Below, one piece after another: positions 444-10,719 of a DNA stretch of 54,390 bases. The notes under the pieces were generated by a model. The model searched no databases. It was not told where the DNA came from and saw only the letters and a list, made by a program, of their open reading frames with translations. The position numbers and the translations under genes were made by a program. The stretch comes from Candidatus Kuenenia stuttgartensis (GTDB lineage Bacteria; Planctomycetota; Planctomycetia; Planctomycetales; Planctomycetaceae): NCBI GenBank assembly GCA_945861465.1, contig CAMAVB010000016.1:1-54390 (forward strand). The letters run 5' to 3'. The number at the start of each line of letters is the position of its first letter. Position 1 is the stretch's first letter.

Positions 444-545
444 CAAGGGGGAGAAGGTGGCCGACAGGCCGGATGAGCCGCCTAAAAGTCCCTTCTCCCC
501 CTGGCAAGGGGGAGAAGGTGGCCGACAGGCCGGATGAGGGGGCTT
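444..545. repeat. Palindromic repeat B, one half copy and one full copy
   Basis: A half copy (444-477) and a full copy (488-543) of the repeat whose core is GGGGGAGAAGGTGGCC followed by GACAGGCCGGATGAG. The full copy is a hairpin, GTCCCTTCTCCCCC paired with GGGGGAGAAGG. They lie between the transposase remnant and the 3' end of the giant pseudopilin gene, in the opposite orientation to the copies around 6080-6420. Short open frames across this stretch are translations of the repeat. The rest of 295-553 shows nothing else. Confidence 0.85.
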
Positions 546-553
546 GACGCAGT

Positions 554-3500
554 CTATTTAATTGTCACCTGATTCTTCACCAACCGCTTCCAATCAAAAT
601 CACCGGTCCCGGGGTCATAAGCGTTGAACGCTTCGGTCCGGTCGATGATAAAGACTGCTCGCTGTTCGTCATTTGTCGCATCCCCATCCTGATCCAGATC
701 GTACCGACCACCTACCCGAATCAACCCGGTCGTCGGCTCTTCGTATGCTTCAAAATACGCGGCAACACCGTAAGCGATGAAACAGTTGCTGACAGTGGTC
801 GTATTGTTCAGGACCTTTGAAAGAACCTGATGCCGTTGAGACACTGCGGCAAAGCGGCGTTCTTCGGTCACCCCTGATCCGTCGATGTTCCCCGGCAGCT
901 GATGAATTGCTGGCGATCCCACTTCCAGCCAGTGGCGATTTGTGGTGTCAAGTCCATCACCAAGATCCCCCAACAAACGGCGCAGCGGGGTCTGCTGAAT
1001 CCCGTTATCCTGTGCCAGGTTCGAACCTTGAAAGCCGTACGATCGAAATGGATTGGCGTTGGCAGTCGCAGGCAACCAGAACGCTGCAGGTGCAGGAGGA
1101 ATCGCGGTGGGGCTATAGCTCATCGTTGGGAGACCGTCTCTCTCCTTTATCAAATCAAACCAGGCGTCACGACCGCCAGCTTCAGCCGTACTCTGCAGAA
1201 ATGGTCCGTTTTCTTCGTTGTTTGTAAGTGGCACATCCGACAGTGGTGGAACATCTGCGAACAACGGATTGTCAATCAATCCCGCAAGAACTTCTCGATG
1301 CCGGATCATGTTCACATTCAACTTGCCAGGGATGCGCTGCAGCGTCAGATAATTTCCCAGCATTCGATGGACGCGCGATGGCACTTCCACAAACTGAAAC
1401 AGGCGATACCAGCGATTGTCGCGTGCGCTGTTGATAATGTTTGACATTTCCGTGCCGTTTGGGAAGTCCGGTTGAAGCACCATGGCTTCGGCAGTTGACA
1501 AGTTCGCTGTACGAATTGTTCCGGACGGAGCGGCACCTGCTGGATTATCAAATACCTGACGATAGGGAGCGTATCGCATCCGATTCAATCGATGCGTCAA
1601 CAGATTCGGACCAACCAACGGGAGTTGAAGAAGTTCTGCAGACGAAGCAAACTCTCGATCGTAGTGCATCTGCATGAGATCAAATCCGGGAGCACGTGGG
1701 GGCGTGGATTGTGCCGCTGCGGCTGCGGTCGCGGCGTTCGTTTCGCTGCCAATGGTGTTAAAACGATACGACAGCGGGGCGGGATCACTGGCTTGATTTG
1801 CTGTATAAGTCGTTCTGTTTTCCGCATCCAAAGGTTCACTTCGTTCCATTGAGGGAGCGTCTTCCAAATGGAGAGTCGCCGTATTGTTCGTCGTATCAAG
1901 CTGGAAAATTTTCTGGAATACGACCGGATGACGATCGACTTCGATCCATGGATTTTCCGTAAGTGGCAACTTTGGCATGTTCGGATTCGCTCGACGTCGA
2001 AGTACCAGGTCGAATCCTTTGCCGGGTGGCGCATTGAAGCCGAAGTCATCGTTGCCTTGATAGTCTGTCATCGTATCAATGAACTGGCCCAGATTCGTGC
2101 GATTGTTACCGGCATTGAGCCAACGCGTGTTCTGCGCCGGGTAAATCAGGTCCAGATCGCAACGAGGTAGCGCTGGAGCACCACCTGTTGTCAAACTCGG
2201 AGCAGTGATGTCGGGGGCCACCAATTCGAAAGTGAGTCCTGGGTCGATGTCGGAGTTCACGTACAAGTCAGCAGTTCCCCATCCGGTTGGATCTGCCACT
2301 GACGGTCCCGACGTATTTCCCGCGATCGCCACTGTGAATCTGTTGCCTCCGGAAACGCTGACGTTGCCTTCCATCAGAGTCAGACGTTGTGTGGGAATGG
2401 TCAGCTGTGGAGCAGCCGCTGAGCTGCGGTCAAACCTGGCTAACTGCCAGATCCCGAAGTCTTCATTTCCGGTGGCGGTCACGCCGGTCAGAGCCATGTC
2501 TACCGGTGTCGGGCGCACGTTCTGCAACTCGATCTGGAGGAAGTTGGTGTCAGCAGTGAGATCGCTATGTTGCGTCTGAGGGCTGTCAGGAATGCTTCCC
2601 GTGAATTCCGGGCTGGTTGCCGCCAAAACTTCGTTAAACGCCAATTCCTGTGCTTCGACTCCGAACACAACGCCACGTTCAAGGCCATCTTCAGGATAGA
2701 GGCCGTTTCCAGTGGCTCCAGCGGATGGGGCGTCTTCGGCATAACCCAGACTCGCGTCAACGGCCAGGACAGCGTAAGGATCATCATCCATATTCCAGCC
2801 GTTGCCAAAATTCTTATCGTATTCAAACTTGGTCACAACGTTGTCGGAATCCATTGCATCGACCATGTTAACCGCAAACTGTGCCATTCGCCGCAATTGT
2901 TCATGCGTGTAAAGTGATGCGCCATCCGATGTGGATGGAACATTCGCCAGCGAGTAGTTCAGGATTTGATTTGGCGTCAACGATGTGTCGATTCCCGCCC
3001 CGCCAATCGTATACAACAAAACATAGATATCTCGAGCCAGTTTCTGGCGGTCGCGTCGAGCCCAGAATTCGCGTTGTTCAGGTGTCGTCGGTGGGAACAG
3101 AACCGGAGAAGCGATGGAAGTGGTCGGCATAACCGTCGCTCCGGTAATCGCAGCACCTTCCAACGCGGAGGGATGATCGATCAGTGGGCGGAATCGCATG
3201 CCTGCCCGCTGCATGTAATAGAGGAATTCCGGCGTTCCATCTGCTGGAGTCTGGTTGTTCCGTTCCACATCCAGAATGTGATTGATACTGAGCGGCATTT
3301 GCCCGAACAAACCTCTGCCTTCCCCCGATTCCATCGTCAGAAGTCGACGAACCTGCGGGCGAAAAGGATCTGTCCCGCTGTATGGCTTGCCCTTCGCTGC
3401 TAGCGGGGGGACGGCCGCAGGATCGAGGAAACTTGGAGGGAATTCGTAAAATCCGTCGCCGTCCGGAAATCCGTCGCCGTCTCGATCATTGCCATCTGTG

Positions 3501-5899
3501 TCCGCGCTGAATTGCCACGCTCGGTGTTTGGTATCACTGTCAAGATAACTAGCCGCAAAAACCTCATCCGGCTCATCGGTGAGATTATCTCCATCATCAT
3601 TCACTCCAGCGTCGCCGGGGCGTCCATCCGCACCGAATGGTGAGCGCATCATAAATCGATGCAATGAATTGCTGACCGTGGTGAATCGCGATCGAACCCC
3701 CGGAGTAACCTGTTCATAGAAGCTGAACGGCGCGTTCCCCCGATCGAGCGCGTAAGGCGCAAGTTTAACCATTCGCTCCGACACTTTAGGCGGTGTTCCT
3801 ATATCGGCATCTGTCAGATGCAGGGCAGGAGTGTCCTGTGGTCCGAAGACGGCGTCGAAGTTCTTCTGGGAAATCTCGGCATCAAACACCGATTCCAGCG
3901 GACCTTCGAACAGGGCGTCAAGATTCGGATTCGCGATCAAGTCGTCGCCGGTCGCGTTGTCAAACGTGCCGTTCTGCCCGAAGACGTAACGAGAATTGGC
4001 CGTGTTGATGTCACGCGTCATCGAGTATCCATTGAATGCCTGGAAGCGTTCCGGCCCGGTACTCGCGACGTTGTGATGTAGAATTGGAATACGAGGGTCG
4101 GTGTTACCCACAGGAAACGTAAACCTTCCAGTAGCCGGGTCATAACCATTTGCGTAGCCTTGGATTGTTCGCCCCGTTCCCGCGTAGTCCATTGGCGTTC
4201 CAAATGGTCGGATTCGCCCGAGTCCGGGAGCGATCTCTCCGTCCATCGCATCCTGATTGTCGTCGAAGCCGTTGCGACCGTTTCCAAACATCAGCCCGCC
4301 GAAGCGAATTCCCGCACTCAGCACCTGCTGCGCATCTCCCGAGGCACCGGGTCGCGGCAGATCCCATACTTGGAAAGTCCCCCCCATTGGTTTATATGTG
4401 TTGAAGATTCTCTCCGCTTCACCCCAACGACCAGTAAAGATGTCGTCCAGCGCGTTCGTCGCACCAATTTCAGCCCGACCGGACAGCAGCCAGATCCATT
4501 CCATATTCGCCTGTTCAAGTGGGCTACTCGGGAGTTGTCCATACGCATGATTGAATTGACGGGCCACATTAGCTGGCACACCTGCAGCAAGACTTTTCCG
4601 CAATGCCCAGATCGGGTTGATCTCGTTGGGGCCAAGTCCCTGATTGGAACGAGATACGGAAAAACTGTTCAGCACGTCCGATGCGGCAATCGCCTTCAGA
4701 TTTCCAGAGCGATCCAGCCCGGCAAGATTGCCATGCACGTTCAGATCGATGAGGCCATCCAGATCGTAGATCGTAAAGGAATGCATCACGACGTACAGAC
4801 GTGTCGTCCCGCTCCCATCAACATGCTCCTGGACCGGATAATGAGTATCGATCCAGATTCCTTCACGAATTCCGTCACCGTCCGGGTCTGCATCAAGCTC
4901 GTAGGCATTCGGGTCAGACCCTGTCCACACGCCCAACTCGCCTCGGATTCCGTTTGCACCACCTGGGTCTGTAACAGCGTTGTCAGCTGGCACAAACGGG
5001 AAAGCGCCACTGGTGATGCCAAAAGCAGTGGCCTCGACGGCAGTGAGATAACGGTAAACCGGCGTGGTGCCATCGGGCATGAAGCCCGCGATATGTTGCG
5101 GATTCGGTCGAAATGATCGTTGTGCAAAGCCAGCCGTATTCCTGTTCACGCCATCATAGGTCTGAGCCCAATTGATATCCGTCGGCGTAGAGTTGCCTCC
5201 GAAACCGTTGTTACCGCCAGTTTTCATATACTGAGGGCGGAAGAATGACGGAATGATAATCGGGACACGTTCGTAGCTTCCGCCGCCGTTATCTCGCACA
5301 GCCCAGCCCTTGTATGCCAGAAACAGGTTGTTGATATCAGGTGACGTGTAGTCCACGTCTGGTGCCGGGATTCTTGAAACACGTGTCTCATTTCCCATCC
5401 AGACAGAAGGCGAATCCACGAAGTTCAACAGCGGCTGGTTGTTCGTTTCACCCGCAGGAACGCCATCCTCGTCGTTTGCGTCGCCGTCCCGATCCATATC
5501 CACTCGAGGAACGGCAGCGGTATCGACGGTTGACGGATCATCCTGCATGATCAGATGAATGCCTTCACCACTGTGCGGCGACAGGTCACCGCCGACCAGA
5601 TTGGTTGTGATCGAGTGCCGACGTGTTGTACTTCGCAAAATACTGGGACGATCGGAAGGAGAGTTACTGGTTCCCGAAACGAACTGCCGCAGAGGATGGT
5701 CCCAGACATTGTCCGGGGCATCGACTTCACCCTTCGCGGCCTCACTGAAATACTCCGCCGCCTGACGCTCCGAGGACGCAAACGTGAAGAACACTACGCC
5801 GGTAAAGGCCAGGAGTCCCAGCAATGCGATGACGATGATGAGCGTCGAGCCTCGACGATCATTGGTGCAGTTTGTTGGTGATTGAGAATTTTTGTGCAT
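554..5899 (-). CDS. Giant pilin-like protein in GspK position (1781 aa)
   Basis: The N-terminus is a type IV prepilin-like signal: a short leader ending in R15-R16-G17, then STLIIVIALLGLLAFTGVVF as a hydrophobic helix. After cleavage behind G17, position +5 is Ile rather than the usual Glu. GspK tip pseudopilins also lack Glu5, and this gene sits exactly where gspK would be, after G-, H-, I- and J-like genes. GspK is normally about 300-330 residues, so this is over five times larger. Acidic Ca-binding-like loops recur: D-M-D-R-D-G-D near 134-140, D-A-D-P-D-G-D-G near 336-343, further ones around 775-830, and D-L-D-Q-D-G-D about 45 residues from the C-terminus. The remainder matches no fold I recognise. 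It probably caps the pseudopilus or acts as an exported surface protein; the prepilin signal is sure, the GspK role is inferred. Confidence 0.75.
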   Translation of the reverse strand: MHKNSQSPTNCTNDRRGSTLIIVIALLGLLAFTGVVFFTFASSERQAAEYFSEAAKGEVDAPDNVWDHPLRQFVSGTSNSPSDRPSILRSTTRRHSITTNLVGGDLSPHSGEGIHLIMQDDPSTVDTAAVPRVDMDRDGDANDEDGVPAGETNNQPLLNFVDSPSVWMGNETRVSRIPAPDVDYTSPDINNLFLAYKGWAVRDNGGGSYERVPIIIPSFFRPQYMKTGGNNGFGGNSTPTDINWAQTYDGVNRNTAGFAQRSFRPNPQHIAGFMPDGTTPVYRYLTAVEATAFGITSGAFPFVPADNAVTDPGGANGIRGELGVWTGSDPNAYELDADPDGDGIREGIWIDTHYPVQEHVDGSGTTRLYVVMHSFTIYDLDGLIDLNVHGNLAGLDRSGNLKAIAASDVLNSFSVSRSNQGLGPNEINPIWALRKSLAAGVPANVARQFNHAYGQLPSSPLEQANMEWIWLLSGRAEIGATNALDDIFTGRWGEAERIFNTYKPMGGTFQVWDLPRPGASGDAQQVLSAGIRFGGLMFGNGRNGFDDNQDAMDGEIAPGLGRIRPFGTPMDYAGTGRTIQGYANGYDPATGRFTFPVGNTDPRIPILHHNVASTGPERFQAFNGYSMTRDINTANSRYVFGQNGTFDNATGDDLIANPNLDALFEGPLESVFDAEISQKNFDAVFGPQDTPALHLTDADIGTPPKVSERMVKLAPYALDRGNAPFSFYEQVTPGVRSRFTTVSNSLHRFMMRSPFGADGRPGDAGVNDDGDNLTDEPDEVFAASYLDSDTKHRAWQFSADTDGNDRDGDGFPDGDGFYEFPPSFLDPAAVPPLAAKGKPYSGTDPFRPQVRRLLTMESGEGRGLFGQMPLSINHILDVERNNQTPADGTPEFLYYMQRAGMRFRPLIDHPSALEGAAITGATVMPTTSIASPVLFPPTTPEQREFWARRDRQKLARDIYVLLYTIGGAGIDTSLTPNQILNYSLANVPSTSDGASLYTHEQLRRMAQFAVNMVDAMDSDNVVTKFEYDKNFGNGWNMDDDPYAVLAVDASLGYAEDAPSAGATGNGLYPEDGLERGVVFGVEAQELAFNEVLAATSPEFTGSIPDSPQTQHSDLTADTNFLQIELQNVRPTPVDMALTGVTATGNEDFGIWQLARFDRSSAAAPQLTIPTQRLTLMEGNVSVSGGNRFTVAIAGNTSGPSVADPTGWGTADLYVNSDIDPGLTFELVAPDITAPSLTTGGAPALPRCDLDLIYPAQNTRWLNAGNNRTNLGQFIDTMTDYQGNDDFGFNAPPGKGFDLVLRRRANPNMPKLPLTENPWIEVDRHPVVFQKIFQLDTTNNTATLHLEDAPSMERSEPLDAENRTTYTANQASDPAPLSYRFNTIGSETNAATAAAAAQSTPPRAPGFDLMQMHYDREFASSAELLQLPLVGPNLLTHRLNRMRYAPYRQVFDNPAGAAPSGTIRTANLSTAEAMVLQPDFPNGTEMSNIINSARDNRWYRLFQFVEVPSRVHRMLGNYLTLQRIPGKLNVNMIRHREVLAGLIDNPLFADVPPLSDVPLTNNEENGPFLQSTAEAGGRDAWFDLIKERDGLPTMSYSPTAIPPAPAAFWLPATANANPFRSYGFQGSNLAQDNGIQQTPLRRLLGDLGDGLDTTNRHWLEVGSPAIHQLPGNIDGSGVTEERRFAAVSQRHQVLSKVLNNTTTVSNCFIAYGVAAYFEAYEEPTTGLIRVGGRYDLDQDGDATNDEQRAVFIIDRTEAFNAYDPGTGDFDWKRLVKNQVTIK

Positions 5900-5956: not shown

Positions 5957-6475
5957 CCCCTCTCCCCTGATTCAGGGGAGAGGGTTATCTTGTTTCTTGT
6001 CCCCACTCCCCTGACAAGGGGAGAGGGTTAGGGTGAGTGGTTTGCTCTTTTTGTTCTGCCACATCTCCACCGAAGCCGGCCCCCTCATCCGGCCTTCGGC
6101 CACCTTCTCCCCCTTGCCAGGGGGAGAAGGGACTGATTCTTGTCCCCTCTCCCCTGGCAAGGGGAGAGGGTTAGGGTGAGGGGTCTGCTTTTTCTGTTCT
6201 GCAACGTCGCGACCGAAGCCAGCCCCCTCATCCGGCCTTCGGCCACCTTCTCCCCCTTGCCAGGGGGAGAAGGGACTTATTCTTGTCCCCTCTCCCCTCA
6301 CAAGGGGAGAGGGCTAGGGTGAGGGGTCTGCTTTTCTGTTCTGCAACATCGCAACCGAGGCCAGCCCCCTCATCCGGCCTTCGGCCACCTTCTCCCCCTT
6401 GCCAAGGGGAGAAGGGACTTATTCTTGTCCCCTCTCCCCTCACGAGGGGAGAGGGCTAGGGTGAGGGGTTTGCTT
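5957..6475. repeat. Tandem array of interleaved palindromes A and B, about 142-bp period
   Basis: Two hairpin units alternate. Unit A is CTCTCCCCTG..AGGGGAGAGGG followed by TTAGGGTGAGGGG (copies near 5957, 5999, 6141, 6284 and 6427). Unit B is CATCCGGCCTTCGGCCACC then a CTCCCCC/GGGGGAG hairpin (copies starting at 6080, 6223 and 6365). B starts are spaced 143 and 142 bp, with a conserved linker CTGTTCTGCAAC between A and B. The array fills the gap between the giant pseudopilin gene and the DUF559 gene, and its last A copy runs into the DUF559 3' end. Reading frames across it encode only repeat translation. Confidence 0.9.
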
Positions 6476-6839
6476 TCAGTGCATTTATTATGCCACGTGC
6501 CACGGCCTCCGCATCATTTAACACATCTTCATTCCAAAATCGAAGGACCACAAATCCTTGTGCCTTTAAGTACTCCTGCCGTTCCAGATCTTCTTCCACG
6601 ATGTAGTCGTGATATTCACCATCAAGTTCAATAATGAGTGATCGTTCAAGACAGACAAAGTCAACGATGTACTTCCCAATGGAATGTTGACGCCTGAACT
6701 TTGCACCTTCCAGGCGGCGATTTCGAACCATTGCCCAAAGTAGCTGCTCCGGCTTCGTCGTAGCACCACGCAATCCACGTCGAAATGGAAGAGCATATTC
6801 AGGCTCCGTTCCGCGTTGATGACGTGATCCTTTGCTCAT
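6456..6839 (-). CDS. DUF559 family protein, PD-(D/E)XK nuclease-like
   Basis: A 127-residue protein of the DUF559 family, a compact restriction-endonuclease-like fold related to Vsr-type nucleases. Visible motifs are the N-terminal RNRRLEGAKFRRQHSIG segment, then the acidic core IVDFVC followed by IIELDGEYH, matching the D...ExD pattern of this superfamily, and the C-terminal FVVLRFWNEDV strand. The start at 6839 is preceded by AGGAAGG. The gene sits inside the cluster of palindromes A and B: its last residues and TAG stop are encoded by an A copy, and another A plus B pair lies directly upstream of the start. It interrupts the pseudopilin order between the J-like and K-like genes. Substrate and role are unknown; a link to repeat spread is only a hypothesis. 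Confidence 0.85.
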   Translation of the reverse strand: MSKGSRHQRGTEPEYALPFRRGLRGATTKPEQLLWAMVRNRRLEGAKFRRQHSIGKYIVDFVCLERSLIIELDGEYHDYIVEEDLERQEYLKAQGFVVLRFWNEDVLNDAEAVARGIINALKANPSP

Positions 6840-6857
6840 GGCCTGCCTTCCTATTTT

Positions 6858-6989
6858 GTCCCCTCTCCCCTGTTTCAGGGGAGAGGGTGAGGGGTTTGCT
6901 TTTTCTGTTCCACAACGTCGCGACCGAAGCCGGCCCCCTCATCCGGCCTCCGGCCACCTTCTCCCCCTTGCCAGGGGGAGAAGGGACTT
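6858..6989. repeat. Palindromes A and B between DUF559 and J-like gene
   Basis: An A copy (about 6858-6898, TCAGGGGAGAGGG then TGAGGGG) and a B copy (about 6934-6989) joined by the same CTGTTCCACAAC-type linker as in the main array. The B copy abuts the TAA stop of the J-like pseudopilin gene (6988-6990). Confidence 0.88.
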
Positions 6990-8955
6990 ATTTGGGTGGG
7001 TCTGTTAGCGGGATCACTAACGACAGTTGTTTCAATGTGTCTGATGTCTTGTCATAGAAACGGAACTGAACCCGAACGGATTCCAATGGACGTCGGTTGT
7101 CGAAAGATTCCCAGATGACTTCTCCATCTGTCACTCGCCGACCTGGTGCAGTAGGAAAATTGGGTGGTGACATTCCAGTCCTGACGCCGTCACCGTTCAT
7201 ATCATCACCAGAAACACACACGTAGGCGATATGAAATGCCTGGAGAGGTATTTGGTCTGTATTAAGTCCAGTTGGCCATTCAAATATCTCGTTTGGCATG
7301 TCGCCATCAAAGGTAACGGGGGCAAAGACAATACTTCCATCCATCAGCACTCGTGGATTTCCGGCGATGCTAGTGCTGTTTGGCTGCCAATAGGTTCGCA
7401 CTGAATCTGTCATGCTTGATGGCGAGGGTCCCGGCGGAATGTCTGTCTGTCGCGGTGGATAGTAAGCGTATGGGATATAAGGCGGACTTCGTTCTGCGTC
7501 AGACACAGTACCGACACCGTCGAAGTCCAATGACACGCCGGGGTGCCAGGTGTCAAATGTATGGCCTTTCATCGCAACCGGGCCAGCCGACCCAAGAGGT
7601 CCGGAGTTAATGTTTAGACACCGGCTGACGTGGAAATCACCGGTTTGTCCTGTCGCAGGATTTGTCCAAAAATGACCGGGAGTCACGAATCGCTGCAGCC
7701 GATGATCCCAGATCTCGACCTTCATCTCGTGAACGTTCGTCAGCAGCAGATCTTCCACGCGACGCACTCCGCCTCGACCTTCGGGGTTCGTCGATGCGTC
7801 GAACGCTGAAACGATGCCATTACCCTGATTCAGGGTCATGGGCATCCCTACGATGTCAAAAGGATTGCCACTTCCGAGGACCGCATTACCGTTTGCCACC
7901 GACGAATCTGTGTTGCCGGCCAATTCGACGGTCGATGGTCCCTGTGGCCAATTGAAATTTCCTGTCGATGTTTCCGCCTGCAGAAACGCGCCAAGGAACT
8001 TACTGGGGCCAAGATTAGCCGCCGGATGCACAGCGTGCTCCCGAGACAACCCTGTCACTGGATTGAATCCAAATCGATTGGTAGGAACCGCAAGAATATC
8101 CTGGGCCGCTCCGGCAGTCTCATTTGACAACGATGCACTGCCCACAAAAGTTGCTTTCTGTCGCCCCCCGATATTTGTGGCAAACGCCGAGTAATCAAAA
8201 AGCCGATAAAAATCGTCTGTAGCAGCTGCGCCAAGTGGCTGGAACAGTCCATCGTAAGTGGCGTTGTTCGACGGGTTCGTTTGACCAAGGAAGAAATCGA
8301 ATCCAGACTGTGCCGTCGGCTGGGGAGCCAGATTTTTTCCGGCATAGGAAATTGGTTCCCTGACAAGCATGACACGCCGATAGAGATTTCCGTTCCGCAG
8401 GAAGTAGCACACTTCAGCGGCGGGAGAACTTCCAATCGAATTCGCCGCGATCGATCCGTCATCAGTTTCCGGCTGATTAGGACTAATCGCCAATCCTGAA
8501 GTGCCGTTGCTCCGATCAACAAGTTCGGTCGCCCGACCGAAGTAAGGCGACGCATCTGTGTCGTCAAAAAGAATATTGGAACTGACAGTAAACTGAATCT
8601 TGTCATCAAGGCCGCTGTCCGGTTCATTCATCGAAAAATACAAGTAGCCAGCTCGATTTGAAAACGAAGTGACCGACTTCGCTGAGTCCTCAGTCGGGAA
8701 ATATGGGAGCGAGTACCGCATCGTCCGATGCTGAAAATCCTTGTTCATCACGGTAAATACAGATCGAGCTCGCTGGTCGTTCAACGAGATTCCACGCTGC
8801 TTCGACATACTCCGCGTGGTGATCTGAAAGATCGTGGCAAACATCGTCATCATCAGCAGCACAAGGCTGACGGATACCAACATTTCGATGAGGGTAAACG
8901 CGGAGCGATTCTTTAATTGCTTCTTTAACTTACGATGTTTTGTTTTCATGGTCAT
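6988..8955 (-). CDS. GspJ/PulJ-like pseudopilin, oversized (about 655 aa)
   Basis: A basic leader ending K-N-R-S-A is followed by FTLIEMLVSVSLVLLMMTMF, a prepilin N-terminal helix with Glu at +5. The residue before the cleavage site is Ala rather than Gly; the DUF1559 protein at the end of the window also has Ala there. The EMLVS..L pattern and the SM.KQRGI segment after the helix resemble the GspJ/PulJ group, and the gene lies between the I-like gene and the K position. GspJ is normally about 200 residues, so most of this protein is extra soluble domain. I chose ATG 8955; a GTG at 8967 and an ATG at 8949 are alternatives, and the GTG is at the edge of repeat B. Confidence 0.78.
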   Translation of the reverse strand: MTMKTKHRKLKKQLKNRSAFTLIEMLVSVSLVLLMMTMFATIFQITTRSMSKQRGISLNDQRARSVFTVMNKDFQHRTMRYSLPYFPTEDSAKSVTSFSNRAGYLYFSMNEPDSGLDDKIQFTVSSNILFDDTDASPYFGRATELVDRSNGTSGLAISPNQPETDDGSIAANSIGSSPAAEVCYFLRNGNLYRRVMLVREPISYAGKNLAPQPTAQSGFDFFLGQTNPSNNATYDGLFQPLGAAATDDFYRLFDYSAFATNIGGRQKATFVGSASLSNETAGAAQDILAVPTNRFGFNPVTGLSREHAVHPAANLGPSKFLGAFLQAETSTGNFNWPQGPSTVELAGNTDSSVANGNAVLGSGNPFDIVGMPMTLNQGNGIVSAFDASTNPEGRGGVRRVEDLLLTNVHEMKVEIWDHRLQRFVTPGHFWTNPATGQTGDFHVSRCLNINSGPLGSAGPVAMKGHTFDTWHPGVSLDFDGVGTVSDAERSPPYIPYAYYPPRQTDIPPGPSPSSMTDSVRTYWQPNSTSIAGNPRVLMDGSIVFAPVTFDGDMPNEIFEWPTGLNTDQIPLQAFHIAYVCVSGDDMNGDGVRTGMSPPNFPTAPGRRVTDGEVIWESFDNRRPLESVRVQFRFYDKTSDTLKQLSLVIPLTDPPK

Positions 8956-8966
8956 GCCTGGGAACA

Positions 8967-9082
8967 CCCCCTCATCCGGCCTTTGGCCACCTTCTCCCCC
9001 TTGCCAAGGGAAGAAGGAACTTATTCTAACTCCGTCCCCTCTCCCCTGTTTCAGGGGAGAGGGTTAGGGTGAGGGGTTTTGC
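8967..9082. repeat. Palindromes B and A between I-like and J-like genes
   Basis: B (about 8967-9023) and A (about 9036-9082) fill the gap between the stop of the I-like gene and the start of the J-like gene. The 5' leader of the J-like gene is therefore repeat sequence. Confidence 0.88.
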
Positions 9083-9105: not shown

Positions 9106-10719
9106 TCACCGATTTGTCGGGAGGCTGACGGAGCCCATGGGATACACATCAATGACGCCCGGCAGGAACATCACCTTGCCGCCGATTGCGGATTGAATCA
9201 CGGGAGACTCGAGAGTGATCTGATAGCCGTTGCCAGTGGCCGATCCAATCTGGATTCCACTCGCTTCGCGGTGTGCCTGCACGCGATACCAACGTGCATT
9301 TGTGACGTCCAGCAGGTAGCCGGATCTTTTTAATGCAGGCTCAATCACGTCCCCTTGTTCATTCAATCCGCCGTCCAGAAAAACATTGAGTGTATAAGAG
9401 CCCTTGACAAATCCAGCGGTGTAGAGGCGCTCGTCGTCCGGTGTGACCGATTTGTTATGAGTGACGACAACATCAACTCCTCGTGCCTGTCCGTCGGAAC
9501 CGCGCCGGACAGTCAAAAGCCAGTTGTAATCATGAGTTCGAGATGACTGAAGTAAAACACGCCCCACCACATAGCTACCTGTCGTGGCGTCGTAAAACTG
9601 GGCTGGCAGCAATCGCTCGTTTCCTGCGATTCCGTCCACAATGCCGTTCATGTTCAGGTCTTCACCGGGGTCCATCGAACCATTAAAATTGATGTCTTCG
9701 GTCCAGACGGCGATGTTGGAGCCGCCAATCGCGATGAGCGGCAGCGAAACGCTGAATCTGCCATCGACTGAGAATACGACAATCCGGCAGACGTCAGGGT
9801 CTGGGATGATCTGAGTTCCGGCGTTCCGAGGCACATAATTTGTTGCGGTCTGTACATCGGTGAGATCAAGATCGTCCGGCAGCTTTAGTCCGACCACGCG
9901 CCCCGCTGTACTGGTCGTTAACATTCCATCGTCCAACACAAACTGTTCGGCTATCGTATCGACTTTCGTTTCCCAACCATCACCCAACTTAGACAGCGAC
10001 GATCCAAGCAATTGCAGCGATCTCGCCTGGCCAGGCGCAGTCACAGGATCGGGATCGAGCCCATTACCACCCCATGTGCCCATCGTCGCCGTACGGATGC
10101 CGCCGTCATAACGCGGCAGCACGTCAAAGGGCTCAGGCGTGCCATTATTGTCTGAATCGATATTGCCGAACCAGTCGCAAAGTCCTCTCAACGTGGGATC
10201 ATTGCGCCCGATGGCAGGATCATTCAGGGTCGGATTGCTGGACCACGTAGCTCCTGGCGCTGCCGCGATTTCAAAATATCCTGCAGGATCAACGATGTAA
10301 CGTTGTTCTGTTTTGTTCCAGATGTGTTCATCCAGATTTCCATCACCATCCGGGTCAAACAGGAGTTCCTTACGCATCTGTACGAGTGCTTTGGCGTTGG
10401 TCATGAGGATTGCGGCGTTCGTCAGCTGAGTCGCCTGGACTGATCGCAAGACAGAAATCGGAAACAGCACTGCAACCGACGACACACCGATGCTCATGAT
10501 CAGCATCGACATCAGCACTTCTGTCATTGTGACACCGCGGCGAAACGCACCGACCCCCCCATCCGGCCTTCGGCCACCTTCTCCCCCTGGGAGGGGGAGA
10601 AGGGACGTGGCAGCATGATTTTGTGTAGTGTTGTTTTTGCTTTTTGCAGCTGTCCCCTCGACCCCGTTTCGGGGGGAGAGGGTTAGGGTGCGGGGGCTTT
10701 TTGCAAGCAATCGTTTCAT
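9106..10719 (-). CDS. GspI/PilV-like pseudopilin with repeat-derived leader (537 aa)
   Basis: The pilin signal lies unusually deep: R60-R61-G62 precede VTMTEVLMSMLIMSIGVSSV, giving Glu at +5 (E67). The upstream residues read SPRTLTLSPRNGVEGT and SLLPLPGGEGGRRPDGG, which are in-frame translations of palindromes A and B. The ATG at 10719 overlaps the TGA of the preceding H-like gene (ATGA), as expected for translational coupling, and no ATG, GTG or TTG lies in frame between the repeats and the pilin helix. So either a leader of about 62 residues is made and cleaved, or the insertion impairs the gene. The MTEVLMSM..MSIGV helix is typical of the GspI/PilV group; the mature part is far larger than the usual 120 residues and carries acidic loops such as EDINFNGSMDPGEDLNMNG (positions approximate). 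Confidence 0.78.
   Translation of the reverse strand: MKRLLAKSPRTLTLSPRNGVEGTAAKSKNNTTQNHAATSLLPLPGGEGGRRPDGGVGAFRRGVTMTEVLMSMLIMSIGVSSVAVLFPISVLRSVQATQLTNAAILMTNAKALVQMRKELLFDPDGDGNLDEHIWNKTEQRYIVDPAGYFEIAAAPGATWSSNPTLNDPAIGRNDPTLRGLCDWFGNIDSDNNGTPEPFDVLPRYDGGIRTATMGTWGGNGLDPDPVTAPGQARSLQLLGSSLSKLGDGWETKVDTIAEQFVLDDGMLTTSTAGRVVGLKLPDDLDLTDVQTATNYVPRNAGTQIIPDPDVCRIVVFSVDGRFSVSLPLIAIGGSNIAVWTEDINFNGSMDPGEDLNMNGIVDGIAGNERLLPAQFYDATTGSYVVGRVLLQSSRTHDYNWLLTVRRGSDGQARGVDVVVTHNKSVTPDDERLYTAGFVKGSYTLNVFLDGGLNEQGDVIEPALKRSGYLLDVTNARWYRVQAHREASGIQIGSATGNGYQITLESPVIQSAIGGKVMFLPGVIDVYPMGSVSLPTNR
10550..10700. repeat. Palindromes B and A inside the I-like coding frame
   Basis: B (about 10550-10607) and A (about 10651-10700) lie within the 5' part of the I-like pseudopilin gene, both in frame without stops. 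They encode residues about 8-25 and 38-57 of that product. Confidence 0.85.

Follow-up and report, generated by a model that had tools for sequence, protein, structure and literature searches.

Why does the gene for a small nuclease-like protein of the DUF559 family (PF04480) stand in the midst of a nest of short palindromes, and does it have a part in their spread? The question is raised by one locus of the window, the stretch of 54,390 nucleotides analysed here, which is contig 16 of a host genome of 8.2 Mb in 474 contigs, to judge by its gene content presumably a member of the phylum Planctomycetota. It touches two puzzles that appear to answer each other: repeats that have no known spreading agent, and DUF559, a common domain that has no agreed function.

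Repeats of the BoxC/PIT/triplex type have been known since the 1990s in Escherichia coli and were later found in more than 260 genomes (PMC4666352). The BoxC or triplex motif (TM) is present in 23 copies in E. coli MG1655, with types A and B inversely paired in five cases (Holder 2015, PMC4666352); it forms a stable intrastrand triplex in vitro, for which the same paper reports no in vivo support (PMC4666352). This 2015 survey states that it found no mobility functions around triplex sites (PMC4666352), and the word 'endonuclease' is absent from its text. On the protein side, Caulobacter VsrA, which carries DUF559, has been read as a mismatch-repair endonuclease (PMC12907096), and E. coli YcjD has been predicted to be a PD-(D/E)XK nuclease whose profile finds Vsr (PMC1189080). 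No link between DUF559 or YcjD and repeats was found in the open-access literature of PMC, covered mainly by titles and abstracts. An earlier note on this locus had proposed, from its layout, a repeat-nuclease partnership comparable to that of REP palindromes and RAYT transposases.

The DUF559 locus and its palindrome cluster

Pseudopilin-type ORFs follow one another on the minus strand in this part of the window, and the DUF559 gene interrupts their order with A and B palindromes on both sides, as the earlier note had described. It lies between ORF 6988-8967, which is above the Pfam N_methyl cut-off, and ORF 554-5899, which is below that cut-off and is pseudopilin-type by eye from its N-terminus only. 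The 1,088 bp between these two ORFs hold the gene and ten palindromes, six of type A and four of type B. The features are as follows.

6456..6839, minus strand: DUF559 (PF04480) gene, 127 aa, Vsr/homing-endonuclease-like; the A repeat supplies its terminal residues ANPSP and its TAG stop
5957, 6002, 6145, 6288, 6430 and 6861: the six A palindromes
6103, 6246, 6388 and 6957: the four B palindromes
6422..6470, plus strand: A palindrome with G-rich third tract, overlapping the DUF559 3' end; right end of the gene-bearing unit
6857..6895, plus strand: A palindrome directly upstream of the DUF559 start
6935..6984, minus strand: B palindrome with tag (TGAGGGG, minus strand), forming an inverted B-A pair with the A palindrome at 6857
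6047..6473, plus strand: gene-less A+B unit, three times in tandem, 142-143 bp each; left part of the cluster
5957..6029, plus strand: two more A palindromes, at the cluster's left margin
8966..9080, plus strand: isolated B/A pair without a gene, in the next intergenic gap
491..540, minus strand: solo B palindrome with tag, gene-less
10579..10601, strand not assigned: another such palindrome, gene-less, within the overextended 5' part of ORF 9106-10719

The assignment of the gene is clear, with a Pfam match to PF04480 at E 1.9e-37 and 127.9 bits against a curated cut-off of 20.6. Its final codons and TAG stop (..GCAAACCCCTCACCCTAG) are indeed repeat sequence, as had been noticed earlier. The A palindrome reads CCCCTCTCCCC..GGGGAGAGGG, in most copies followed by TTA or CTA and GGGTGAGGGG, and with its C-rich arm, loop, G-rich arm, short second loop and G-rich third tract it has the make-up of the BoxC/PIT/TM motif. 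In the direction of the gene the elements run B-A-gene-A-B-A-B-A-B-A-A. Neither the A nor the B pattern was matched in 100 shuffles of the window each, and tandem duplication accounts for much of the local excess of palindromes. Two annotated ORFs are affected by the repeats: the 109-aa ORF 5972-6301 lies wholly within the cluster, and ORF 9106-10719 starts with repeat-encoded residues, its real start probably being further in.

The same pseudopilin gap was compared in six relatives of the genus, where it measures about 116, 138 and 144 bp in three genomes, 267 bp in two others and 346-404 bp in the sixth, and contains no C-rich-armed palindrome. Because the gaps of the relatives are short and free of such palindromes, the DUF559/palindrome cluster was probably added in the lineage of the window.

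Repeat number and DUF559 across genomes

The exact core of the repeat, TCTCCCCN{2,10}GGGGAGA, occurs at 228 sites in the 8.2-Mb genome, nine of them within the 1.03-kb cluster of the window, and its reversed control at none. Among 18 genomes of the genus, the three that have a stand-alone strong DUF559 gene (a PF04480 match of at least 80 bits, among the matches listed) carry 228, 21 and 15 sites, and eight of the 18 carry none. Repeats are also found without a stand-alone DUF559 gene in seven of the other 15 genomes, namely G393, G406, G407 and G408 (15-30 sites) and three with 5-6 sites. From these counts DUF559 goes with the repeats in the genus, yet the repeats may outlast or lack it. Two further loci of the genus were read by eye. 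In G392 an array A-B-A-gene-A-B, with the same TAG stop within the repeat, lies between two other genes; there, as in the window, the two ends nearest the gene are direct and not inverted. In G395 two DUF559 copies stand in tandem, each between inverted tag-palindrome ends, and the second is internally deleted.

In the phylum, PF04480 is present in 134 of 392 genomes and reaches 80 bits in 62 of them, among the matches listed. Genomes with fewer than five sites of a pattern were pooled as the rest. At five or more sites of the window's pattern, strong DUF559 occurs in 15 of 26 genomes versus 46 of the remaining 365 (p 3e-7, the window's own genome excluded), and the repeat-rich genomes in which it occurs are spread over 12 families. 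A second type of palindrome, TCCCCCTTN{2,6}AAGGGGGA, found beside other DUF559 clades, gives 23 of 30 genomes versus 39 of 362 (p 6e-15), and still 6 of 11 versus 35 of 356 (p 4e-4) once family f46, with 25 genomes as counted by eye, is removed. With at least five sites of either type the figures are 35 of 52 versus 27 of 340 (p 1e-20); all these counts treat genomes as independent, and kinship by descent is present among them. The association has exceptions on both sides: 17 of the 52 repeat-rich genomes have no strong DUF559 (17 of the 330 phylum genomes without it), and 27 of the 62 strong-DUF559 genomes have fewer than five sites of both types. The correlation of repeat number with DUF559 that the earlier note had put forward as a check was thus found for both palindrome types.

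Palindromes flank DUF559 genes in many phyla

To the phylum matches of at least 80 bits, which number at least 117, belong 104 that were covered by 100 regions of up to 18 kb; the window's own locus was read directly and 12 matches were left out. In this sample 94 matches are stand-alone genes, and 92 remain after two near contig ends were dropped. In an unbiased scan for any palindrome, the nearest 100 bp on the upstream side of stand-alone DUF559 genes gave 2.8 per kb and those on the downstream side 3.6 per kb, against a background of 0.28-0.37 per kb beyond 1.6 kb. The main scan, for palindromes with 8-bp arms, one mismatch and a C-rich 5' arm within 200 bp of the gene, was adopted after a stricter one and has its own controls. 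It finds a C-rich-armed palindrome at 85 of the 92 genes, and on both sides at 66, whereas control ORFs of the same regions have one in 63 of 736 cases and on both sides in 5 of 736. The stricter first scan (longer arms, 150 bp) gave 34 of 92 on either side and 20 of 92 on both, versus 15 and 0 of 821 controls. The ten DUF559 domains that lie within longer ORFs behave likewise, eight of them with palindromes on both sides. Moreover, the ORF ends in or just past a C-palindrome in 46 of 94 DUF559 genes versus 7 of 791 controls, as it does in the window.

Two trivial causes can be set aside. An artefact of base composition is out, since the mirror-image G-armed palindromes are far rarer at the same genes (17 of 92, and 5 of 92 on both sides), and a general feature of small genes is out as well, since among 326 short control ORFs only 1 is flanked on either hand by C-palindromes at a distance of up to 200 bp. 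The weak PF04480-like loci of the genus have no C-palindrome within 300 bp (0 of 8).

The layout is not confined to the phylum. A protein-only search of GTDB species genomes with a query (A2) of five proteins known to have palindromes gave 554 matches, chosen on protein sequence alone, the best 80 of which were analysed; their titles name Proteobacteria, Desulfobacterota, Nitrospirota, Methylomirabilota, Rokubacteria, Chloroflexi, Acidobacteria, Dadabacteria and others. Five loci near contig ends were dropped, and 73 of the remaining 75, nearly all from other phyla, have a C-palindrome within 200 bp, 61 of them on both sides. Controls have it in 17 of 172 cases (both sides 1 of 172), and mirror-image palindromes are present at 18 of the 75 DUF559 loci (both sides 1 of 75). 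The enrichment of repeats around DUF559 genes that had been suggested from a single locus is therefore seen at 85 of 92 and at 73 of 75 genes (the latter among the best 80 of 554).

A tree of 185 DUF559 domains, built on few columns and with rough bootstraps, calls for 11 changes of phylum label, a number that may be off by one because one member of the many-phyla set, from Phycisphaeraceae (L240), is presumably a planctomycete. At least four changes are forced by well-supported branches, which points to transfer of DUF559 between phyla.

Other repeated sequences were met at some of these loci. At L049, L054 and L056 the DUF559 domain belongs to ORFs of about 1,270 aa that share a different upstream palindrome, TTGTTTTTGAACGAAAGGCTGTTCAAAAACAA. 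At L087 (query 992-1224, genome G168) a stretch some 232 bp long, lying upstream of the DUF559 gene, has dozens of copies in G168, G258 and G334.

Protein and palindrome co-vary

If enzyme and palindrome belong together, related proteins should have related palindromes, and this is what is observed. Over 183 loci, DUF559 identity correlates with the similarity of the flanking palindromes (rho 0.37; Mantel null with sd 0.034 and maximum 0.105). Genome-wide base composition was removed by shuffling the palindromes only among the paralogues of one genome (22 genomes, 64 loci), and the observed value remained at 0.446 versus a null of 0.291 (0 of 500 shuffles); with pairs sharing a flanking protein removed, the remaining 174 pairs gave 0.425 versus 0.289 (sd 0.017; 0 of 1000). 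Between the many-phyla and the phylum sets rho is 0.257, with a null of 0.185 (maximum 0.231), and within the many-phyla set alone (80 loci) it is weak, at 0.136 (null sd 0.049, maximum 0.157). Related DUF559 proteins have related palindromes, even among the paralogues of a single genome.

Architecture and boundaries of the unit

Beside the two arms of the hairpin, a G-rich third tract accompanies 91 of 183 C-palindromes near phylum DUF559 genes, as compared with 6% of random places and 43 of 161 distant C-palindromes; at the many-phyla loci it accompanies 139 of 191 palindromes, the background having been taken from the phylum set only. At 21 of the 30 phylum loci and 38 of the 45 many-phyla loci that are readable on both sides, both third tracts are turned towards the gene; 64 of 94 phylum loci and 34 of 79 many-phyla loci are not readable in this way. 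The unit thus consists of palindrome, G-tract, gene, C-tract and palindrome. Thirty units listed in this way are 390-472 bp long. In one clade, 14 of 15 units chosen by their end pattern run from (G/A)TCCCCC.. to ..GGGGAC over 449-512 bp, and the one from G095 differs.

The limits of the unit were also read from 403 pairs of non-syntenic copies. Most alignments cover the gene only, 316 stopping short of the upstream palindrome and 263 short of the downstream one. The upstream palindrome is reached in 87 pairs, 68 of which end within 12 bp of an outer edge and 10 of which run beyond; the downstream palindrome is reached in 140, with 117 ending within 12 bp of an outer edge and 16 running beyond. 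Because alignments that reach the palindromes mostly end at the outer edge, the palindromes look like the inverted ends of an element of 390-510 bp, although this boundary evidence comes from a minority of non-independent pairs, since most of the 403 stop short and 10 and 16 overrun. No target-site duplication was evident by eye at 15 elements, and none of the loci compared, three ycjD-less E. coli strains included, offered a clean empty site of a DUF559 element. An insert within the DUF559 gene of G334 (L284, about 1800-2209) was considered and turned out to be an unrelated element that has TA at the junction and repeated ends of its own.

The DUF559 protein resembles Vsr and homing nucleases

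A structure model of the protein (pLDDT 86.5) has its best match in Neisseria gonorrhoeae NGO0050 (3hrl, E 8e-9), followed by the catalytic domain of the homing endonuclease I-Bth0305I (E 2e-5) and then, weakly, by Vsr (E 0.026); a sequence profile likewise recovers 3hrl and I-Bth0305I. The predicted fold is that of a Vsr/homing-type nuclease. A solved structure of a DUF559 protein is thus at hand: by eye, the sequence of 3hrl is that of the gonococcal DUF559 protein of L264, whose gene is flanked by such palindromes. Twelve positions are invariant in 24 diverse DUF559 proteins, among them E31, D60, E71, D73 and H77, which we take as putative catalytic residues.

The protein misses the cut-off of the Vsr family itself (NCBIfam vsr, TIGR00632) with 17.3 versus 97.85 bits. 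The Pfam scan of the window gene gave no match to the Y1 domain (PF01797), and the top structural matches have another fold. A role as a defence gene was also considered and was not retained, as neither the window's protein nor YcjD has a PADLOC match.

E. coli ycjD and the BoxC/PIT/triplex repeats

The family has a member in E. coli. The ycjD gene, between sapF and fabI, is a DUF559 gene, and it is adjoined by CCCCTCGCCCCTCTGGGGAGAGGGTTAGGGTGAGGGG, a repeat that by its sequence has the make-up of the BoxC/PIT/TM motif. Of 5,426 E. coli genomes, 3,362 contain its intergenic stretch at 80% or more. Three strains without ycjD offer no clean empty site between sapF and fabI because an efflux operon follows sapF there; in the strains compared, ycjD and the efflux operon replace each other, an exchange that has been described (PMC12817139).

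Two other loci may be mentioned. In Klebsiella pneumoniae (L265, 3001-3305) a degraded DUF559 relative, adjoined by BoxC-type repeats, is placed between cysP and the gene of a Dyp-type peroxidase. Between ypfG and tkt of E. coli (L272, 600-800, compared with L273-L276) a BoxC-type repeat is present in one strain, a polymorphism in which no boundary can be read; the other four strains have at the same place what we take to be REP-type sequence.

A proposed element and its alternatives

The association, the co-variation, the inverted layout, the readable boundaries and the spread over families and phyla lead us to propose, with a probability of roughly 0.7, that DUF559 is the dedicated nuclease of miniature mobile elements found throughout bacteria, the gene-less palindromes and A-B pairs being their derivatives. 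The full element, of about 390-510 bp, would have at each end a C/G-rich palindrome with a G-rich tract on its inner side (a hairpin plus a third strand) and, between the inverted ends, little beyond the DUF559 gene, whose stop often falls within the right end. From these features we infer how recognition, cleavage and movement, and the route of the latter, might proceed. The Vsr-like PD-(D/E)XK enzyme would recognise its cognate hairpin ends, probably when these are extruded or single-stranded at the replication fork, and would nick or cut at its own ends and at related palindromes; host repair would then copy or reset the hairpin unit at a new place in a homing-like manner. Scattered gene-less palindromes and A-B pairs, those of the window included, would be end-only derivatives like REPINs and MITEs, and the pairs would be moved in trans. 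Two points make us favour cutting or nicking with host repair over classical transposition: nicking and homing enzymes have this fold, and a strand-joining enzyme would not fit into the unit. The space within the unit, which admits little more than the DUF559 ORF, also accounts for the absence from it of any known type of transposase or recombinase. Several points weigh against the proposal. A PD-(D/E)XK nuclease alone is not known to join strands. Some repeat-rich genomes have no strong DUF559, the loci compared showed neither a target duplication nor a clean empty site, the ends nearest the gene are direct in the window and in G392, and co-variation is weak in the many-phyla set alone. Caulobacter VsrA, moreover, has been read as a mismatch-repair endonuclease (PMC12907096).

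We regard as likely too, if with somewhat less assurance, the wider proposition that these elements form a new class: 390-510 bp long, with hairpin-triplex ends, moved by a Vsr/homing-type nuclease rather than by a transposase or recombinase, present in many phyla and represented by ycjD in E. coli, with an enzyme-hairpin pair specific to each clade and with the BoxC/PIT triplex and kindred G/C palindromes as gene-less remnants. As a gene usually found between hairpin repeats, DUF559 is to date the strongest candidate for the enzyme behind their spread. If the proposal is true, a Vsr-like nuclease drives one of the most widespread small repeats of bacteria and constitutes a second, independently evolved solution beside REP and RAYT.

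Other explanations can be offered for the same layout. DUF559 might be a passenger, an ordinary selfish or repair gene kept in palindrome-rich intergenic spots that recombine, rearrange and tolerate inserts, and the palindromes might owe their spread to another agent or to replication slippage. TM/BoxC loci are in fact prone to rearrangement in E. coli (PMC4666352), repeats do occur without DUF559, and tandem duplication explains much of the local excess in the window; the layout, however, is rare at control ORFs of the same regions (5 of 736 on both sides), the type of palindrome tracks the DUF559 clade within single genomes, and homology of the non-syntenic pairs that reach the palindromes mostly stops at the outer edge, and we consider this explanation unlikely. 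An invading homing nuclease, which would use existing BoxC-like repeats as landing sites and would not move them, seems to us improbable as well. It would suit the kinship with I-Bth0305I, the nearest solved relative outside the DUF559 family, and the A-gene-A direct repeats of the window and of G392, which are as expected for insertion into an A array. But insertion into a single palindrome would give halves or direct copies, whereas the usual readable layout has two inverted ends whose third tracts point inward (21 of 30 phylum and 38 of 45 many-phyla loci), and it would leave unexplained why repeats abound where DUF559 is.

That the palindromes are moved by another enzyme, be it a RAYT (Y1_Tnp) or a transposase of an IS, is the most doubtful of these explanations, to which we give hardly any weight. 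RAYTs are thought to move REP elements (PMC8266576), and Y1_Tnp, the RAYT domain, is frequent, occurring in 245 of the 392 phylum genomes and in the majority of the repeat-rich ones. Its frequency in the latter, however, is not significantly raised at 20 of 26 versus 224 of 365 (p 0.14), genome G084 has 343 sites and no Y1_Tnp, and C-palindromes flank Y1_Tnp loci at about the control rate, on either side in 4 of 30 and on both in none of 30 (none of 30 on either in the stricter scan). As main mover RAYT/Y1 is thus rejected on the same 392 genomes, both by repeat association and by flanking palindromes. The dedicated-nuclease reading accords best with the evidence, and the partnership proposed in the earlier note is supported by co-variation, by inverted ends and by homology ending at palindromes, and extended to a general rule with an E. 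coli member, ycjD, in which cleavage and movement would be the steps linking enzyme and repeat.

Comparison with known systems

The parallel with REP/REPIN and RAYT (TnpA_REP, REPtron) drawn in the earlier note lies in the proposed role and does not extend to kinship. Both systems comprise dispersed short palindromes, often as inverted pairs, and a single nuclease gene flanked by cognate palindromes, with co-variation of enzyme and palindrome (for DUF559 weak in the many-phyla set alone). REP/RAYT systems carry a GTAG tag, whereas in the DUF559 hairpin the 5' arm is C-rich and a G-rich third tract is added, and inverted ends as a rule enclose the gene. RAYT is an HUH (Y1) nuclease that processes folded single-stranded REPs (PMC8266576), whereas DUF559, which has no Y1 match, is by its modelled Vsr/homing-type fold a Vsr-like PD-(D/E)XK protein. 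Vsr and I-Bth0305I are similar to it in predicted fold and in profile, but DUF559 stays below the Vsr family cut-off.

Compared with the BoxC/PIT/TM motifs, the A repeat of the window (CCCCTCTCCCC..GGGGAGAGGGTTAGGGTGAGGGG) has the make-up of type A with its T-T-A second loop, and A and B motifs form inverted pairs there too (PMC4666352). The B repeat of the window differs in its second loop, which exceeds in length that of the published type B (C-C-G), and the published account gives no protein partner (PMC4666352).

Pairs of MITEs and IS elements are another model. The DUF559 unit differs from them in having room for little more than its ORF, and no target duplication was evident in the 15 elements read by eye; it resembles them in the combination of an autonomous unit with inverted ends and gene-less derivatives, and at one locus (L133), read by eye, an internally deleted DUF559 copy stands beside a longer one.
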